Part shown: positions 8,867 to 15,336 of the stretch, in pieces
Layout of the letters: each line of letters begins with the position of its first letter
How positions within the stretch are numbered: position 1 is the stretch's first letter
DNA from: a virus
Virus record (IMG/VR): IMGVR_UViG_3300028829_000410
Coordinates: 1 to 45,655 of that record
Direction: 5' to 3' (one strand)
DNA length: 45,655 bases
Program-made: the position numbers and the translations under genes
The notes under the pieces: model-generated
Told to the model about the DNA's origin: nothing
Database searches by the model: none
What the model saw: the letters and a program-made list of their open reading frames with translations, nothing else

Positions 8867-9829
8867 ATGAGCCTACTTAATACCAGAGATTACTACAAAC
8901 CTTTTGACCATCCTTGGATGTTTGATTACTACGTACAGCAGAATCAGATGCATTGGTTTCCAGAGGATGTACCACTACACAATGACGTTAAAGATTGGCA
9001 AGACCTTAACGACACAGAACGCAGCTTGCTCACACAGATATTTAGATTGTTTACTCAGTCGGATGTAGATGTAGGGTCAGGCTATGTAGATAAGTACATG
9101 CGTATCTTTAAAAAACCAGAAGCTCGTATGATGATGGGGTCTTTTGCTAACATGGAAAGCATACACCAACATGCATACAGCTTACTGTTAGACACGGTAG
9201 GTATGCCTGAGACAGAGTACAAAGCGTTTGCAGAGTACGAAGCTATGGCAGACAAACATGAATACATAAACAATATAAAGGTTACTGTTAAAGATAAAGA
9301 AAGTATTGCTAAAGCGTTGGCTGTGTACAGTGGATTTACCGAGGGGCTGCAGTTATTTAGTAGCTTTATAATACTTTTAAACTTTCCAAGATTCGGAAAG
9401 ATGAAAGGTATGGGTCAGATAATCACATACTCTATACGGGATGAGTCCTTACACGTAGAGGCTATGACAAAATTGTTTCGTGAGTTTATACAAGAGAACA
9501 TAAACCTGTGGACTGATGACTTTAAGAAAGAAATTTATCAGGCTTGTAGAGATATGGTAGACCTAGAGGATAGATTCTTAGACTTGGTGTTTGAGGTAGG
9601 AGAGATAGAAGGATTAACTAAAGAAGAAATGCAGCAGTACATTAGATACATTGCAGACCGCAGACTACTACAGCTAGGATTAAAACCTAACTATGATGTA
9701 CACGATAATCCTTTAACTTGGCTTGATGATGTGCTAGGCGTAGAACACCAGAACTTTTTTGAGGGTCGCTCTACTTCTTACATGAAGGCAGGGCTACGAG
9801 GCGACTTAGAAAAGGTGAAGTTTGTATGA
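8867..9829 (+). CDS. nrdB: Ribonucleoside-diphosphate reductase beta subunit (class I)
   Basis: A 320-residue ferritin-like subunit that makes the radical for NrdA. The metal ligands can be placed as D66, E97, H100, E159, E193 and H196, and a Tyr (Y104) stands in the radical position four residues after H100 (ESIHQHAY), consistent with a tyrosyl-radical enzyme. Other landmarks are EGLQLF and YSIRDESLH. It follows nrdA by two bases and overlaps the next start (ATGA). The cofactor metal (Fe or Mn) cannot be decided from sequence. Confidence 0.96.
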   Translation: MSLLNTRDYYKPFDHPWMFDYYVQQNQMHWFPEDVPLHNDVKDWQDLNDTERSLLTQIFRLFTQSDVDVGSGYVDKYMRIFKKPEARMMMGSFANMESIHQHAYSLLLDTVGMPETEYKAFAEYEAMADKHEYINNIKVTVKDKESIAKALAVYSGFTEGLQLFSSFIILLNFPRFGKMKGMGQIITYSIRDESLHVEAMTKLFREFIQENINLWTDDFKKEIYQACRDMVDLEDRFLDLVFEVGEIEGLTKEEMQQYIRYIADRRLLQLGLKPNYDVHDNPLTWLDDVLGVEHQNFFEGRSTSYMKAGLRGDLEKVKFV

Positions 9830-10041
9830 ATAAAAAAGAAGGAAACATAATATCGTTCAGAGTTTTTATAGATTCAAAAGGTAACTTAGTTACGGAGTTT
9901 AAGAAACTTCCTGAAAAAGAAATCAATAATATATTTGACGAGCATGACTCGCCTTTAGTATCAAAGATAATTAACGAGCTAAACCCCAAACTAGAGGGGC
10001 TTCACTCGCATCTAGAAAAAGAGTTAGGGGTTCTACGTTAG
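9826..10041 (+). CDS. Hypothetical protein, 71 aa, last gene of the rightward arm
   Basis: A 71-residue charged protein (MNKKEGNIISFRVFID... ending LEKELGVLR) whose ATG overlaps the nrdB stop. The start resembles a short beta-hairpin (ISFRVFIDSKGNLVTEFKKLP) followed by helices. The stop codon overlaps the stop of the pqqA-like gene on the other strand, so the two operons meet tail to tail. No family recognised. Confidence 0.6.
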   Translation: MNKKEGNIISFRVFIDSKGNLVTEFKKLPEKEINNIFDEHDSPLVSKIINELNPKLEGLHSHLEKELGVLR

Positions 10042-10112
10042 CGCATGTTTATGTACATCGTAACTTCAAAGCCATATCTCATATCTATGTATGTTGGTTT
10101 TTCCCATATCAT
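10038..10112 (-). CDS. pqqA: Pyrroloquinoline quinone precursor peptide PqqA
   Basis: A 24-residue peptide beginning MIWEKPTYID and continuing with MRYGFEVTMYINMR. It matches the short beta/gamma-proteobacterial PqqA pattern at nearly every conserved place: W3, K5-P6, D10, R12, G14, the core E16-V-T-x-Y20, and the final Arg. In PQQ synthesis the Glu and Tyr of the E-x3-Y core are cross-linked by the radical SAM enzyme PqqE with PqqD, so both atom donors of PQQ are present. A GGAG ribosome site lies nine bases upstream, and the gene starts 15 bases after the previous stop at the far end of the late transcript. No other pqq gene is in the window, so host PqqB-F would be needed. Confidence 0.9.
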   Translation of the reverse strand: MIWEKPTYIDMRYGFEVTMYINMR

Positions 10113-10127
10113 TGTAAATATCTCCTT

Positions 10128-10373
10128 TTAACTTACTGCTTTAATACCTAATCGTCTATTCAGCACCATTTGTTCTGATGTGCTTAAAACAAAATTAGAA
10201 TGTTTACATATCTGCTCTATCAATAATTTTTTTAAAGCATCGTCTTTTCTGTTGCTCTCAGCACAACCGTATATCTCAGAGAACATCGTGCCTAAATGTT
10301 GTAGGGCATCGGTGTTTACTCTGATTGTGGCTGCTTCTGGAGACTCTGTTTGAAAATTAAAAAACTCATCCAT
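10128..10373 (-). CDS. Hypothetical protein, 81 aa
   Basis: An 81-residue soluble protein (MDEFFNFQTESPEAATIRVN..., ending RRLGIKAVS) with predicted helices and two cysteines (GCAES, ICKHS). It lies four bases after the adenylate cyclase stop and 15 bases before pqqA, so it is co-transcribed with both. No family recognised; context makes a role in the same cassette likely but undefined. Confidence 0.6.
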   Translation of the reverse strand: MDEFFNFQTESPEAATIRVNTDALQHLGTMFSEIYGCAESNRKDDALKKLLIEQICKHSNFVLSTSEQMVLNRRLGIKAVS

Positions 10374-10377
10374 TTCA

Positions 10378-12174
10378 TTATGCCTCTAAGTCAGTTGTAA
10401 AAACTTGAAGTGGTTGCTCCTTACCTTTAACTGTAATCTCATTCATCTTTGTTAAATTGTATTTACTTTTACCTGCTGTAGATTCACCTATTAATATATC
10501 TACCTGTTGTTCTTTAGTAGCAGATTCTAAACGGGCTGCTGTATTTACAGCGTCACCTATAGCTGTATAGTCAAACCTTGAATCACTTCCCATATTACCT
10601 ATGACAGCTTCTCCTGAGTTTATACCTATACCTATAGCAATCTTCGGTAACCCTTCTTTAACAAGCTTGTCATTCAACAAGTCCATATTAATTAGTATTT
10701 GATTAGCACAGTTAATAGCTCTGTATTCGTGGTTATCTTGGTCAAGTGGCGCATTAAAGATAGCCATCATAGCGTCACCAATATACTTATCTACCATCCC
10801 ACCATACTTCTGTACCGCAGTTTGCTGTGCCGTTAAAGCTTTGTTCATAATATAAGTTACTTTTTCAGGCGGTAAAGTCTCGGACATACTCGTAAACCCT
10901 CTAACATCCGTAAATAAAAAGGTAGCGTATCTCTTTTCTCCACCTAATCTAAGCAAGCTTGGGTCTTTTTGTAGCTGTTTAACCTGTCTAGGGTCTAGAT
11001 AATGCTCAAATTGTTTCTTTATTTGTTGCCTAAGCCTATGTTGGGTACGGTAATTTAAAAAGTAGGCCACCGTAGAGGCCAAAATCTGGGTGATTAATGC
11101 CCAAGTTGTATCTATTAGCAGCCCATTCTTAACAAATAGTATTTCTGTTGCTGCTGTACCACCAAAAATTACCAGTAAAGAAAGCACTCCTCCGACCACA
11201 CCTAAGCCACTGACTAACATCCACACCAGAGTCACTGTAGTGATGTATATGAGGAGTTCTAGCAACAATGCATAGTTGGGTACATGTGGACTGTTCTCTA
11301 TCAACATGGACTCTGCTAGGGCTGCTTGAATGTATTGAGGTTCTAGAAGTCCTATGGGCGTTGCTACCTGTGGCATTACTCCATCGGCTGTAACACCTAC
11401 AAAAACAAACCTACCTTCTATGTCGTAAGAATCGTACATCTCATCTATCAAAGAAACCTCGTAAGTCTTTACCCAAGATACCCACTTCCTACCTAACGAG
11501 TCTACTTTAACAGGCGGTATACCTTGTACTGTAACTTCTTCTAACCCATTCTGACCAGTTGTTATTATATATGTCTGTGCATCTGCCAGTACCTTTAGTA
11601 CCTGTGTACCAAAAGAAGCCAGCCAACCGTCAGGAGTCTTGTATAGTAGCGGTACTCTGCGTACTAAGTTGTCTACCTCTACAGGAGCTGTTGCTATACC
11701 CTGCTCAGTCCAATCCGAGTCCTTTAGTATATCTATGTTTTGAGCTACACCGTTTGATAAGTAACCGCCTTCTCCCTCACCACGTATAACAGTTCCTACG
11801 GTTTCGGGGTACTCTCCACTGTTGTTACCAAACAAGGCTAACACTGTAGATGTGTGGCTTAGAGACTTAGCAAAGGCTTCATCTCCTCCGAGCCTGTCTG
11901 GATGTGGAAAGGACATAACCCATCCTACTCCTGTAGCACCTCTACGCAATAAGCTGTTGTTTATCTCTGCTAGTCTAGCGCGAGGTAGTGGATACCCACC
12001 CTCTCTGTCTATATCTTCTGCTGTAATGTTTAGTATTGCAAAGTAACCAGACTCCTCTGGTGTCTCTACAAGCCTATCAAATGTTCTCATCTTTAGAACT
12101 TGATAAGCTGTAGGCTGTAGCAGTAGGGGAAGTATAAGTAAACTTATTAAAATAAAACCGTATAAATTTTTCAT
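10378..12174 (-). CDS. CHASE2-domain class III adenylate cyclase
   Basis: A 598-residue membrane sensor that should make cAMP. Order: N-terminal membrane anchor (residues ~4-23), periplasmic CHASE2 sensor (~30-300, with PRARLAEIN, WVMSFPHPDRLGGD and FVFVGVTADG), three membrane helices (~300-375), then a cytoplasmic cyclase domain (~412-595). Catalytic residues are intact: metal-binding D423 (FTDVRGF) and D467 (IGDAMMA), adenine-selecting K463 with T537 (DYTAIGD, class IIIb pattern), and transition-state N544 and R548 (NTAARLE). The start overlaps the FecR gene stop (TAATG). FecR-domain/CHASE2-cyclase gene pairs are familiar in bacterial chromosomes; here the pair sits in a phage late operon. 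Confidence 0.95.
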   Translation of the reverse strand: MKNLYGFILISLLILPLLLQPTAYQVLKMRTFDRLVETPEESGYFAILNITAEDIDREGGYPLPRARLAEINNSLLRRGATGVGWVMSFPHPDRLGGDEAFAKSLSHTSTVLALFGNNSGEYPETVGTVIRGEGEGGYLSNGVAQNIDILKDSDWTEQGIATAPVEVDNLVRRVPLLYKTPDGWLASFGTQVLKVLADAQTYIITTGQNGLEEVTVQGIPPVKVDSLGRKWVSWVKTYEVSLIDEMYDSYDIEGRFVFVGVTADGVMPQVATPIGLLEPQYIQAALAESMLIENSPHVPNYALLLELLIYITTVTLVWMLVSGLGVVGGVLSLLVIFGGTAATEILFVKNGLLIDTTWALITQILASTVAYFLNYRTQHRLRQQIKKQFEHYLDPRQVKQLQKDPSLLRLGGEKRYATFLFTDVRGFTSMSETLPPEKVTYIMNKALTAQQTAVQKYGGMVDKYIGDAMMAIFNAPLDQDNHEYRAINCANQILINMDLLNDKLVKEGLPKIAIGIGINSGEAVIGNMGSDSRFDYTAIGDAVNTAARLESATKEQQVDILIGESTAGKSKYNLTKMNEITVKGKEQPLQVFTTDLEA

Positions 12175-13316
12175 TAAGATCCTTGTAGTATTCTTATTGT
12201 TGAATCTGAGCCACCATTAATCTTGACAATCTTCTCGACACCTTCTTGCATAAGGACTACGGTATACGCATTACTTCCATCTACGTCTAACCTAACTTTG
12301 TGTCCTACGAATCTTTGCAGCGTAACTATCTGCCCATTTACTAGCGTAGTAATCTGTGTATCTTTATCCTGACCTAGTGCTGTACCTGTAATCTGCATCG
12401 TACTAGATTGTTTCAATTTATCTTCTTCTTCGGCAACTGCAAGAGCATCTAGCACATTTAACAGATCTTCCAAGAAGTTAACATCAAGATAATTAATATC
12501 TAATTCAGTAAATTCAAACTCTGAGGACTCGTCAAGGAAATCATCCGCTAAAAAGTCCACATCTAACCCTGAAAAATCTAAGTAAGGATTGCTTTCTGCT
12601 ACAGTTTCTACCTCCTCGGCACGTTCGGCTCTTTTAGGAGGAGTTACAATCAACATGTTATCAATTAAATCTAATGTTAAATTTAATATAGCAGGTTTAG
12701 TCGGGGCATTTACAAACAACGAAGCTGTAGTAGCTTGATAAGGTTTGTTTAAGGTTACGCTACCAGCTGCTGTCGAAACTACAATCTCTCCAGACGACAA
12801 ACCGTTAGCATCAGGCAGTAAAATAATTAAACTTTTACCAAGCTCATCTACTGTACATGTAAAGTCTGTACCTAGTATTGCAATGTTTGCTGTAGGTGTA
12901 GATAAGTTAATATTCTTTTTATCTATTTTACCTAGCTTACCTGTAAGAAACCTAGCCGTACCTCTAGCAAATTTCAGAGTCATCTTAGATTTGCTAGGGT
13001 TTGGATTGTAAATGTACTCATTAATTAGTAACTTGCTATGCTCAGTAAGTCTTACTTTACTGTCATCTTCAAAAGTTATAGCCATCCTACCTCTAGAAGT
13101 TTCTACATTATCTAAAGATTGTATGCCTAAGTTAAGCTCTGCTCCTAACTCTTTGTCTCTGATTATCCTACCACGACCGTTAAGCTCTGATATAGCTCCT
13201 ATGTCAGCAGCCCACAGCGGTTCCTTGATCGTCTTGCTCAACACAAACAGAACCATTAGAGCCATCAGAAGTAATTTTGAGCCAATCGTTATTTTGTGTA
13301 CTTGTTTGTGAAACAC
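12174..13316 (-). CDS. Secreted FecR-domain protein
   Basis: A 380-residue exported protein. A signal peptide (LLLMALMVLFVL... ending near WAA at ~35) is followed by a FecR domain at ~38-170: GIQSLDNVETSRGRMAITF and DDSKVRLTEHSKLLINEY match the 'GD.V.T...G...I.F.DGS.L.L...S.L' pattern. A very acidic stretch (~250-300, rich in LD/FL/ED) and a beta-rich tail follow. Such proteins are usually periplasmic regulators or partners of CHASE2 cyclases. The GTG start at 13316 has AAGGA upstream and overlaps the curlin-like gene by 113 bases; ATG 13265 is an alternative that keeps the signal peptide. It is coupled to the cyclase by TAATG. Confidence 0.85.
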   Translation of the reverse strand: MFHKQVHKITIGSKLLLMALMVLFVLSKTIKEPLWAADIGAISELNGRGRIIRDKELGAELNLGIQSLDNVETSRGRMAITFEDDSKVRLTEHSKLLINEYIYNPNPSKSKMTLKFARGTARFLTGKLGKIDKKNINLSTPTANIAILGTDFTCTVDELGKSLIILLPDANGLSSGEIVVSTAAGSVTLNKPYQATTASLFVNAPTKPAILNLTLDLIDNMLIVTPPKRAERAEEVETVAESNPYLDFSGLDVDFLADDFLDESSEFEFTELDINYLDVNFLEDLLNVLDALAVAEEEDKLKQSSTMQITGTALGQDKDTQITTLVNGQIVTLQRFVGHKVRLDVDGSNAYTVVLMQEGVEKIVKINGGSDSTIRILQGS

Positions 13317-13902
13317 TGAATGTCCTTGAACCTCCTGTATGATCTAACCAAAAATAACCGCCAGAACTAGCATTAACTCCTGTACCTGTATAGGTTACAG
13401 TATTGTCGCTGCCGTCAATATCCATGTAGTTAGTTGCTTGATCAATGTTTATGCTAGATGTAATTGTGTTATTACTTCCCTGTATTATCCAATCTAAATC
13501 AAGAGTACTTGCTGCTGCGCTAGTTGCTTGATTTAGCGTCATGGTATTGCTACTACCCGTTACATTTACATTTACGTTAGAACTGTCTGCCCCATACGTA
13601 TTGCTTGTATCAGTTGAAACTGTCATATCATTTGAATCACCTGTAAACTGAAAAAATCCAGTGTACTCTCCTTTCCAAAGGTTGCTTGAACCTATTTGAT
13701 TTATATCTAGAGTATTTGTTGTACCTATGAAGTCAAAATCTGTAAGCGTACCTGCTACAGAACCAACACCACCTATCAGGTTAGAACCGCCCTGTTGTTC
13801 TAGGTCAATACTTGCAGTCGCTCCTGATTGATCCATATATATCTCGTTATCAGCTAAAACAAAATGCATAACAGAAAAAAATAATATAAACGCTTTAATC
13901 AT
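13204..13902 (-). CDS. Curlin-like repeat protein (putative amyloid subunit)
   Basis: A 232-residue exported protein: signal peptide (MIKAFILFFSVMHFVLA) and then a chain rich in N, S, T, G, Q and D with almost no Lys or Arg. Imperfect curlin-type units recur, such as NEIYMDQSGA, NTLDINQIGSSN, NTMTLNQAT, NTITSSINIDQATN and a final VCVEQDDQG. These fit 'N-x-I/L-x-I/V-x-Q-x-G-x2-N', the beta-arcade of CsgA/CsgB. A GGGAG site precedes the ATG, and the gene overlaps the csgG-like gene by eight bases. Two Cys near the C-terminus could form a disulphide. Repeats are degenerate, so another beta-solenoid adhesin is possible; csgG/csgF next door make a curli-type cargo the best reading. Confidence 0.72.
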   Translation of the reverse strand: MIKAFILFFSVMHFVLADNEIYMDQSGATASIDLEQQGGSNLIGGVGSVAGTLTDFDFIGTTNTLDINQIGSSNLWKGEYTGFFQFTGDSNDMTVSTDTSNTYGADSSNVNVNVTGSSNTMTLNQATSAAASTLDLDWIIQGSNNTITSSINIDQATNYMDIDGSDNTVTYTGTGVNASSGGYFWLDHTGGSRTFSVSQTSTQNNDWLKITSDGSNGSVCVEQDDQGTAVGC

Positions 13903-14737
13903 TTTTTATCTCCCAGTATTTTTTGCTTATCCCTTCGTTAATAGTTTGTAGTACTGCTGTCTCTATTGCTGCTTGAAGGGCAATGTTTATCGATTCATTC
14001 TGCACCGAACCATTTTCAATTTCTATTAGTTCAGTTCCTTGAGCTACAAATTTAAAAACATCTTGGTTGTATCCTACACTTAGGACACTCTTAGTTACTA
14101 AAGTTTCTATTAGTACCCTACCAGTAAGTACAGAAACTGTTCTTAATGATACAGTAATAATATCTTGTCTGTATTTTCTGGAAGCTCCGATACCTAAGTA
14201 CCTTGCTCCAGAACCTCCAGAAAGCACATTACTTTCGTAACCTACGACACTTCCCTCCATAAGCAACCCTGCAAAAAGTAAAGGCTTTAACTTTTGCTTC
14301 TCATCAAAGTCTGCTCTAGCTGACCTGATAAGCTGCCTTTCCTTTGCAAGATGCTCTAGCCCTACTCTATCGACTACATCGAAGAACCCACGCTTCTCAG
14401 AACCTGCGTGGTGTAACGCTCGTATAAGATACGCTACAGGCTTTTGAGTTACGGCAGTACTGAAGCTTGCATACTCCCCGTTGCTTCTTCTCTGCCCCGT
14501 GTCATCTAAGAAAGCTCCTGCATACACCGCAACTACGGGTTTTTTAATCGGTGCATTTACTCTTGCAAGTTCTTTTATAAGAAGCTTTCGTATAACTGGT
14601 TGTTCTATTTTGGGAGATATATGTCCTTTTATTCCTCCTGTATTTGCACAACTAGAAAGTAAAGCTGCCAATAGGAACAGTAATAGTAGTTTCACCACCT
14701 TCCGTGTCTGTAATTTTAAGTGAAACAAAACTTCCAT
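13895..14737 (-). CDS. csgG: CsgG-like curli secretion pore lipoprotein
   Basis: A 280-residue homologue of the outer-membrane nonameric pore that exports curli subunits. The lipobox LLSSC places the lipidated Cys at residue 30. The match to E. coli CsgG is extensive: VVAVYAGAFLDDTGQ (VSVYNIQDETGQ), FSTAVTQ, GLEHLAKERQLIRSA (GLQNLLNERKIIRAA) and especially MEGSVVGYESNVLSGG-GARYLGIGA, then TVSLRTVSVLTG and the C-terminal AIETAVLQTINEGI--YW. GTG 14695 would give a more typical lipoprotein signal, so the start is open. It follows the csgF-like gene with an overlap and precedes the curlin-like gene. Confidence 0.96.
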   Translation of the reverse strand: MEVLFHLKLQTRKVVKLLLLFLLAALLSSCANTGGIKGHISPKIEQPVIRKLLIKELARVNAPIKKPVVAVYAGAFLDDTGQRRSNGEYASFSTAVTQKPVAYLIRALHHAGSEKRGFFDVVDRVGLEHLAKERQLIRSARADFDEKQKLKPLLFAGLLMEGSVVGYESNVLSGGSGARYLGIGASRKYRQDIITVSLRTVSVLTGRVLIETLVTKSVLSVGYNQDVFKFVAQGTELIEIENGSVQNESINIALQAAIETAVLQTINEGISKKYWEIKND

Positions 14738-15092
14738 CTGTACTATAATCCACCTTATTACCTTCTAATGTAAAGCTTCCGCTTTCTGATTTAGTTTCTC
14801 CAAACATATTGTCTACTAGCTGCCTAGATAACTCTGCATATATGCGACTTTCTAAGTTACGAATAAACCTAGCAAGCGTTGTGTTATTTTGGTCACGTAA
14901 TAGTTCTTCTTTATACGCTTGAATTTCTTCTTTAATTTTTTCTTCACGACTGTGTTCTTGGTTTTCTATAGTAAGGTAGTGCGCTGACGTACCGTTACCA
15001 GAAAAACTAGGACTCTTAAATTTAAATAACATCTCATCAGCAGAAATGACATTTAAAAATAAACTACATACAACACTAAGTAGTAGTTTCAT
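14652..15092 (-). CDS. csgF: CsgF-like curli assembly factor
   Basis: About 146 residues: signal peptide MKLLLSVVCSLFLNVISA, then DEMLFKFKSPSFSGNG, which matches the CsgF N-terminus (MTFQFRNPNFGGNP) that plugs into the CsgG pore. A middle helix (ESRIYAELSRQLVDNMFG) corresponds to SQILGGLLSNI, and the C-terminal strands (YSTDGSFVSLKITDTEGGETTITVP) match [25 protein letters not shown] of E. coli. I choose ATG 15092; GTG 15116 would add eight residues. It lies directly before csgG, the usual partner; CsgF caps CsgG and couples secretion to nucleation. Confidence 0.92.
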   Translation of the reverse strand: MKLLLSVVCSLFLNVISADEMLFKFKSPSFSGNGTSAHYLTIENQEHSREEKIKEEIQAYKEELLRDQNNTTLARFIRNLESRIYAELSRQLVDNMFGETKSESGSFTLEGNKVDYSTDGSFVSLKITDTEGGETTITVPIGSFTF

Positions 15093-15336
15093 CGTTGTTT
15101 TTGCTTTCAACTTCACGTAACTCTATAACCGTATCTAGTTTTTGTTGCAGCCGTATAATGTCATTGTCCAACATCCTTATGCGATCTATCAAGCCGACTA
15201 GAGTTCCCATTGTCTCTCCTAGCTTGGCTTTTATTTGTTTGGTTATAAACTCCCATATGAAGTAAATCATGTACAGCAAACCTACCGTAGCTACAATAGG
15301 AAAACCATACTCTCCAATAATCTGTGCTACGTTCAC
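15076..15336 (-). CDS. Small membrane protein A (holin-like paralogue)
   Basis: An 86-residue protein with one N-terminal membrane helix (GFPIVATVGLLYMIYFIWEF) and a C-terminal coiled coil (IDRIRMLDNDIIRLQQKLDTVIE). It shares the IxExGFPI start and an 'ID.R...ND..R' segment with the next upstream gene, so the two are paralogues. GTG start with AGGAG upstream; the GTG overlaps the previous stop (TAGTG). One membrane span plus coiled coil is seen in several small phage holin-like or UviB/BhlA-like proteins, but it could equally serve the csg genes that follow. Confidence 0.72.
   Translation of the reverse strand: MNVAQIIGEYGFPIVATVGLLYMIYFIWEFITKQIKAKLGETMGTLVGLIDRIRMLDNDIIRLQQKLDTVIELREVESKNNDETTT

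Follow-up and report, generated by a model that had tools for sequence, protein, structure and literature searches.

The window, our term for the whole 45,655-nt stretch of viral DNA analysed here, contains a 24-codon gene that sequence comparison confirms as a genuine pqqA, and cross-linking of its product by PqqE/PqqD on the way to PQQ is predicted. The gene is part of a wider distribution, since pqqA was found in all six methylophage isolates recovered from 50,697 phage records and in no other phage isolate among them. We consider it likely that a lytic marine phage acquired pqqA and uses it as an auxiliary metabolic gene, one whose product provides substrate to a PQQ-making host.

Identification of pqqA in the window

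The gene (MIWEKPTYIDMRYGFEVTMYINMR) occupies positions 10038 to 10112 of the minus strand, and direct reading of the strand placed the ATG start codon at 10112-10110 and the TAA stop codon at 10040-10038. The peptide scored 41.8 bits (E = 6.6 × 10^-11, cut-off 20) against NCBIfam TIGR02107, a curated equivalog model for the PQQ precursor peptide, and 35.4 bits (cut-off 21.1) against Pfam PqqA (PF08042). The identification as PqqA in the initial annotation therefore held above the curated cut-offs of both families. TIGR02107 matched nothing else in the whole record, and the PqqA DNA motif occurred a single time in the window but never in 100 shuffled versions.

All the residues on which the initial annotation had relied, namely W3, P6, D10, R12, G14, E16-V-T-x-Y20 and the terminal Arg, were read in the peptide, with Met in the variable position of the motif (E16-V-T-M-Y20). 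The atoms of PQQ derive from the Glu and Tyr of E-x3-Y in PqqA, and these two residues, three residues apart, are present in the window and kept in all 11 of its window-type relatives described below. The strong ribosome site that had been proposed was also found, as AAAAGGAGAT at 10120 to 10129 on the minus strand, and the spacing from GGAG to ATG is 9 nt. The gene thus has the size (within about 22-29 aa), start, stop and ribosome site of a free-standing short peptide.

Bacterial PqqA (TIGR02107/PF08042), including the solitary genes of the multi-copy Methylophilaceae, is likewise 23-24 aa long with W-x2-P and R-x-G-[FL]-E-V-T-x-Y, and also shares the basic C-terminus, the strong ribosome site and a frequent location away from pqqBCDE. 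Unlike these, the window gene is encoded by a phage with no further pqq gene in the retrieved flanks, and no close bacterial counterpart of its WEKPTYIDMRYGFEVTMYI type was found by the strict pattern in the genome searches.

The phage and the position of the gene

The window can be assigned to the HMO-2011/HTVC115P-type podoviruses from the homology of its terminase, DNA polymerase and gene order. TerL showed 66.7% identity to its counterpart in Pelagibacter phage HTVC115P, whereas identities of about 50% were obtained with HMO-2011 and with several phages of Roseobacter. The DNA polymerase showed 45.8-49.3% identity to HTVC115P, HTVC103P and HTVC104P (45.8% for HTVC115P), and the window shares about 24 of its ORFs with this group of podoviruses. 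Phage-type terminase, RNR and DNA polymerase genes share the 45.7-kb record with pqqA, indicating a bona fide phage genome. The cultured phages most closely related to the window phage infect SAR11 strain HTCC7211, and pqqA was not detected in them. tRNA genes were sought in the window as a clue to the host and none was found.

As the initial annotation had stated, pqqA lies at the 3′ end of the late operon; it is the final gene of this long minus-strand operon, and its 3′ end overlaps by 4 nt that of a convergent 71-aa gene (orf71, 9826 to 10041, plus strand; phrog_27180, E = 1.1 × 10^-22) that ends the opposite early/replication operon. The gene for the RNR small subunit (8867 to 9829, plus strand; phrog_86, E = 2.1 × 10^-88) marks this conserved convergent junction. 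An 81-aa gene (10128 to 10373, minus strand) without Pfam or meaningful PHROG match comes directly before pqqA in the late operon, and its stop codon is located about 15 nt ahead of the pqqA ATG. It is preceded by late-operon cargo on the same strand, a CHASE2-domain adenylate/guanylate cyclase (10378 to 12174; Pfam CHASE2 88.5 bits, Guanylate_cyc 74.8 bits) and a FecR/curlin-repeat-like/CsgG/CsgF cassette (12174 to 15116), in which FecR, CsgG and CsgF were above and Curlin_rpt was below the Pfam cut-off. A search around pqqA found neither a sigma-70 promoter beyond chance nor an intrinsic terminator.

HTVC115P has a similar genome plan, in which the RNR alpha and beta genes close one operon and the late operon meets it head-on. 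The content of the slot differs: pqqA, the 81-aa gene and the curli/cyclase cassette occupy it in the window, Hsp20 and hypothetical genes in HTVC115P. As a separate observation, a curli-like cassette is here phage-borne beside a CHASE2 cyclase, and a scan with the cyclase yielded at least about 600 IMG/VR relatives.

pqqA keeps its junction while the neighbouring cargo changes

A DNA pattern of the window type identified 11 related IMG/VR contigs, whose peptides fall into two groups, M(I/T)WEKPTYIDMRYGFEVTMYIN(M/I)R and MIWEKPTYADIRYGFEVTMYINTR. Between the two groups, five codons differ silently and three differ in amino acid, at positions 9, 11 and 23 only. W, P, R and G as well as E16 and Y20 are retained in every relative, in agreement with the expectation that E-x3-Y would be conserved in related phages, and the ribosome site is identical in all of them. 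pqqA adjoins orf71 convergently in 11/11 relatives, and RNR-beta follows wherever the contig reaches that far.

The genes on the other side of pqqA were found to vary. In the first peptide group, the cyclase and the 81-aa gene are located upstream, and the 81-aa gene is 95-100% identical in close relatives. In a sister lineage (L212, the same as contig L133), the 81-aa gene is absent and the cyclase stands immediately before pqqA. In L214 (4508-6630, minus strand), the curli/cyclase cassette has given way to unrelated genes for two proteins, one of 559 aa and low complexity and one of 151 aa, while pqqA stays, so this end of the operon acts as a slot for cargo.

The initial annotation had emphasised co-transcription with the cyclase cassette. 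The two do share an operon, but the replacement in L214 shows that the link is positional only and that pqqA is independent of the cassette; a functional tie between them was rejected for this reason.

pqqA in methylophage isolates

The peptide of the window was compared with the 50,697 phage records by tblastn (E ≤ 10), and 12 records matched. Methylophilaceae-type, Pseudomonas-like and enterobacterial-type PqqA queries retrieved the identical 12 records, giving the same result with all four queries. Nine belong to Methylophilales/Methylophilaceae phages, namely Venkman, MEP301, MEP401, MEP402, four variants of Melnitz and P19250A, which correspond to six isolates in five lineages. One more is a metagenomic podovirus (MW202481) that carries pqqA and has about 25 ORFs in common with Venkman. 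The other two, both named 'Acinetobacter phage MD-2021a' (L003 and L010), contain bacterial pqqABCDE loci, look like bacterial contigs and were rejected as contaminants.

None of the ten true phage records annotates PqqA. In Melnitz-1 (L002, 2967-3062) and MW202481 (L005, 2067-2195), the deposited annotation has an ORF antisense to pqqA.

The statement that every methylophage isolate carries the gene refers to the searched collection and the literature searched, not to all isolates. According to a 2023 paper (PMC10580990), Venkman, MEP301 and Melnitz were the only OM43 phage isolates before MEP401 and MEP402. Melnitz is a myovirus (PMC9004378), and P19250A is a freshwater methylophage. The five lineages have few genes in common, and the location and orientation of pqqA differ between them; this varied placement fits repeated acquisition. 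The isolates (Venkman, MEP301, MEP401/402, Melnitz and P19250A) resemble the window in PqqA family, size, ribosome site and phage context. They differ from it in that their peptide is of the Methylophilaceae type, mostly close to MWTxPxATEMRFGFEVTMYVMNK, and in that pqqA has other genomic positions in other phage lineages.

These records bear on whether the gene is a neutral passenger, a small host gene hitch-hiking without function, or comes from bacterial contamination of the records. So small a gene costs a phage little to carry, and two of the 'phage' records were indeed bacterial contamination. This explanation is nevertheless highly improbable in our estimation, because complete phage isolates carry the gene, because the checked cases retain their sequence, their start and stop codons and their ribosome site while neighbours change, and because possession of pqqA separates the six methylophage isolates from every other phage isolate searched. 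The presence of pqqA in every methylophage isolate found suggests instead that these viruses feed the methanol-oxidising machinery of the host during infection.

Distribution among uncultured viruses

A more general PqqA DNA pattern matched at least 120 IMG/VR contigs, compared with a chance expectation of about 0.01 (from base composition, assuming 5 × 10^10 bp). The peptides of the 120 listed contigs are all 23-25 aa long, all start with ATG and all have a stop codon, and a ribosome-site-like sequence is present upstream in 131/131 viral copies (the 120 listed and the window-type set). Because W, P, D/E, R, G, E, V, T and Y were fixed by the pattern itself, their conservation does not count as independent evidence, in contrast to the length, the start and stop codons and the ribosome site. 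Of the 131 copies, 112 showed detectable similarity to the reference phages. pqqB, C, D and E were not detected in the retrieved flanks of these 131 copies with Acinetobacter queries, which divergent homologues could escape. Together with the unannotated genes of all the methylophage isolates found, this breadth agrees with the earlier suggestion that phage pqqA is widespread but overlooked.

A further pattern detected additional PqqA sequence types in viral contigs, including very long ones. Among these, pqqA occurs in contigs of 372 kb (L326), 215 kb (L318) and 144 kb (L325), possibly jumbo or large phages, with types such as MKWETPTYVDLRFGFEVTMYIHNR. Separately, two viral contigs of 52% GC (L312 and L313) carry an enterobacterial-type pqqA (MWKKPEFVDLRLGLEVTLYISNR) with pqqBCDE undetected nearby, and these may represent prophage or chromosomal flank.

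The variety of viral PqqA-like peptides, including those of the very long contigs, would also fit a PqqA-derived RiPP precursor with another use, such as a signal or modified peptide, or a supply of host PQQ to sugar or aldehyde dehydrogenases rather than to methanol oxidation. The lack of a methanol dehydrogenase in the window would agree with such uses. We give them very little weight, as the family matched is defined at equivalog level and the association of the isolates with methylotrophs is complete in the searched collection.

Bacterial pqqA and the host side

Among 398 sampled genomes from the phylum of a gammaproteobacterial MAG, 65 carry pqqA. One family among the carriers had pqqA in 80/80 sampled genomes, with 2-12 copies in 78 of them, and is apparently Methylophilaceae, judged from peptide type, copy number and members of 1.2-1.4 Mb. 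This is in line with the report that Methylophilaceae have 3-12 copies of pqqA while pqqBCDE are mostly single (PMC4109929). Twelve small genomes from this apparent Methylophilaceae family were searched for PqqE, and 11 scored above the cut-off.

Across 84,980 species genomes, the strict window-type pattern matched a single, distant gammaproteobacterial MAG, and it had no match in the 398 proteobacterial genomes; a bacterial PqqA of the exact window type was thus not found in either set. The pqqA of a high-GC gammaproteobacterial MAG (MKWETPAYDDIRYGFEVTMYIYNR; L211, 2410-2490, minus strand) is the nearest bacterial match found to the window type.

Comparison with the host peptides also bears on a possible role of the phage peptide as decoy or brake, in which it would occupy PqqD/PqqE or the protease, be poorly converted, and thereby throttle host PQQ or divert the radical-SAM chemistry. 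A phage that brings only the precursor and no enzyme could equally be bringing a competitor of the host peptide, and several residues of the window peptide differ from those of known host PqqA. We regard this as unlikely, since the cross-linked E16 and Y20 are kept throughout, where a decoy would profit from the loss of one of them, and since methylophage peptides are identical or near-identical to host PqqA, the small genomes of the apparent Methylophilaceae and the phages encoding the same peptide (MWTTPAATEMRFGFEVTMYVMNK, for example in P19250A).

Discussion

The reading that we prefer, supply of substrate to a PQQ-making host, rests on the gene, its motif and ribosome site, the fixed junction despite changing cargo, and the presence in all Methylophilales phage isolates found. 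In the model, the phage would make PqqA late in infection and host PqqD/PqqE would cross-link its Glu16 and Tyr20, after which host proteases, PqqB and PqqC would complete PQQ. The cofactor would then be loaded into PQQ-dependent dehydrogenases of the host, probably for methanol or another alcohol, so that methanol oxidation could continue and serve virion production. The host of the window phage would accordingly be a PQQ-making methylotroph with its own PqqBCDE. Late expression, conversion to PQQ and the resulting PQQ output, the support of a lanthanide methanol dehydrogenase that the initial annotation suggested, and benefit to the phage are the parts of this model that we infer.

One PqqA is consumed for each PQQ whereas the enzymes are catalytic, and therefore the peptide is the only part that the phage must replenish once host transcription fails. 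Supply of the only consumed component explains the lack of an accompanying enzyme. The title of Ge et al. 2015 (cited in PMC9851590) states that one of several pqqA copies is dominant in PQQ synthesis, and, judged from that title, more of the precursor might or might not translate into more PQQ in a healthy cell. Matters would differ in the infected cell, where host transcription is failing.

There is one clear precedent for PqqA in a phage, so it is not entirely new. The Lake Baikal phage population VP_266, with predicted Methylophilaceae hosts, is reported to encode PqqA and methanol dehydrogenase (Coutinho et al. 2020, PMC7678222), and it resembles the window phage in having PqqA as a phage auxiliary metabolic gene. 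It is described there as a T4-like metagenomic phage, and it differs in this and in its methanol dehydrogenase from the window phage, a podovirus that lacks the enzyme; the report covers one population, and the part available does not mention pqqA of other methylophages. In addition, pqqA is included among phosphorus-cycle viral genes in a 2026 paper (PMC13188868), and a PqqA RiPP family is named near defence systems in PMC11118758, where phage-borne pqqA is not described in the available portion. The OM43-phage papers checked make no mention of phage pqqA. The breadth across isolates appears to be new, as judged from a literature search that covered few subscription journals, and the distribution of phage pqqA is the surprising part.

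Taking this distribution as a whole, we lean towards the view that pqqA is a near-universal and repeatedly acquired trait of phages of PQQ-dependent methylotrophs, in which unrelated lineages converge on a ribosomal precursor peptide and not on an enzyme, and that a 75-bp gene missed by standard gene callers marks methylotroph phages and adjusts methanol oxidation. This claim is directly testable, as OM43 phage-host pairs exist in culture. If it is true, viruses of methanol-oxidising bacteria in oceans and lakes carry a metabolic gene that is absent from published annotations, and pqqA would provide a 75-bp marker for predicting the hosts of uncultured phages. It would also represent an unusual type of auxiliary gene, whose product is not an additional enzyme but a refill of the substrate that a RiPP-type cofactor pathway uses up.
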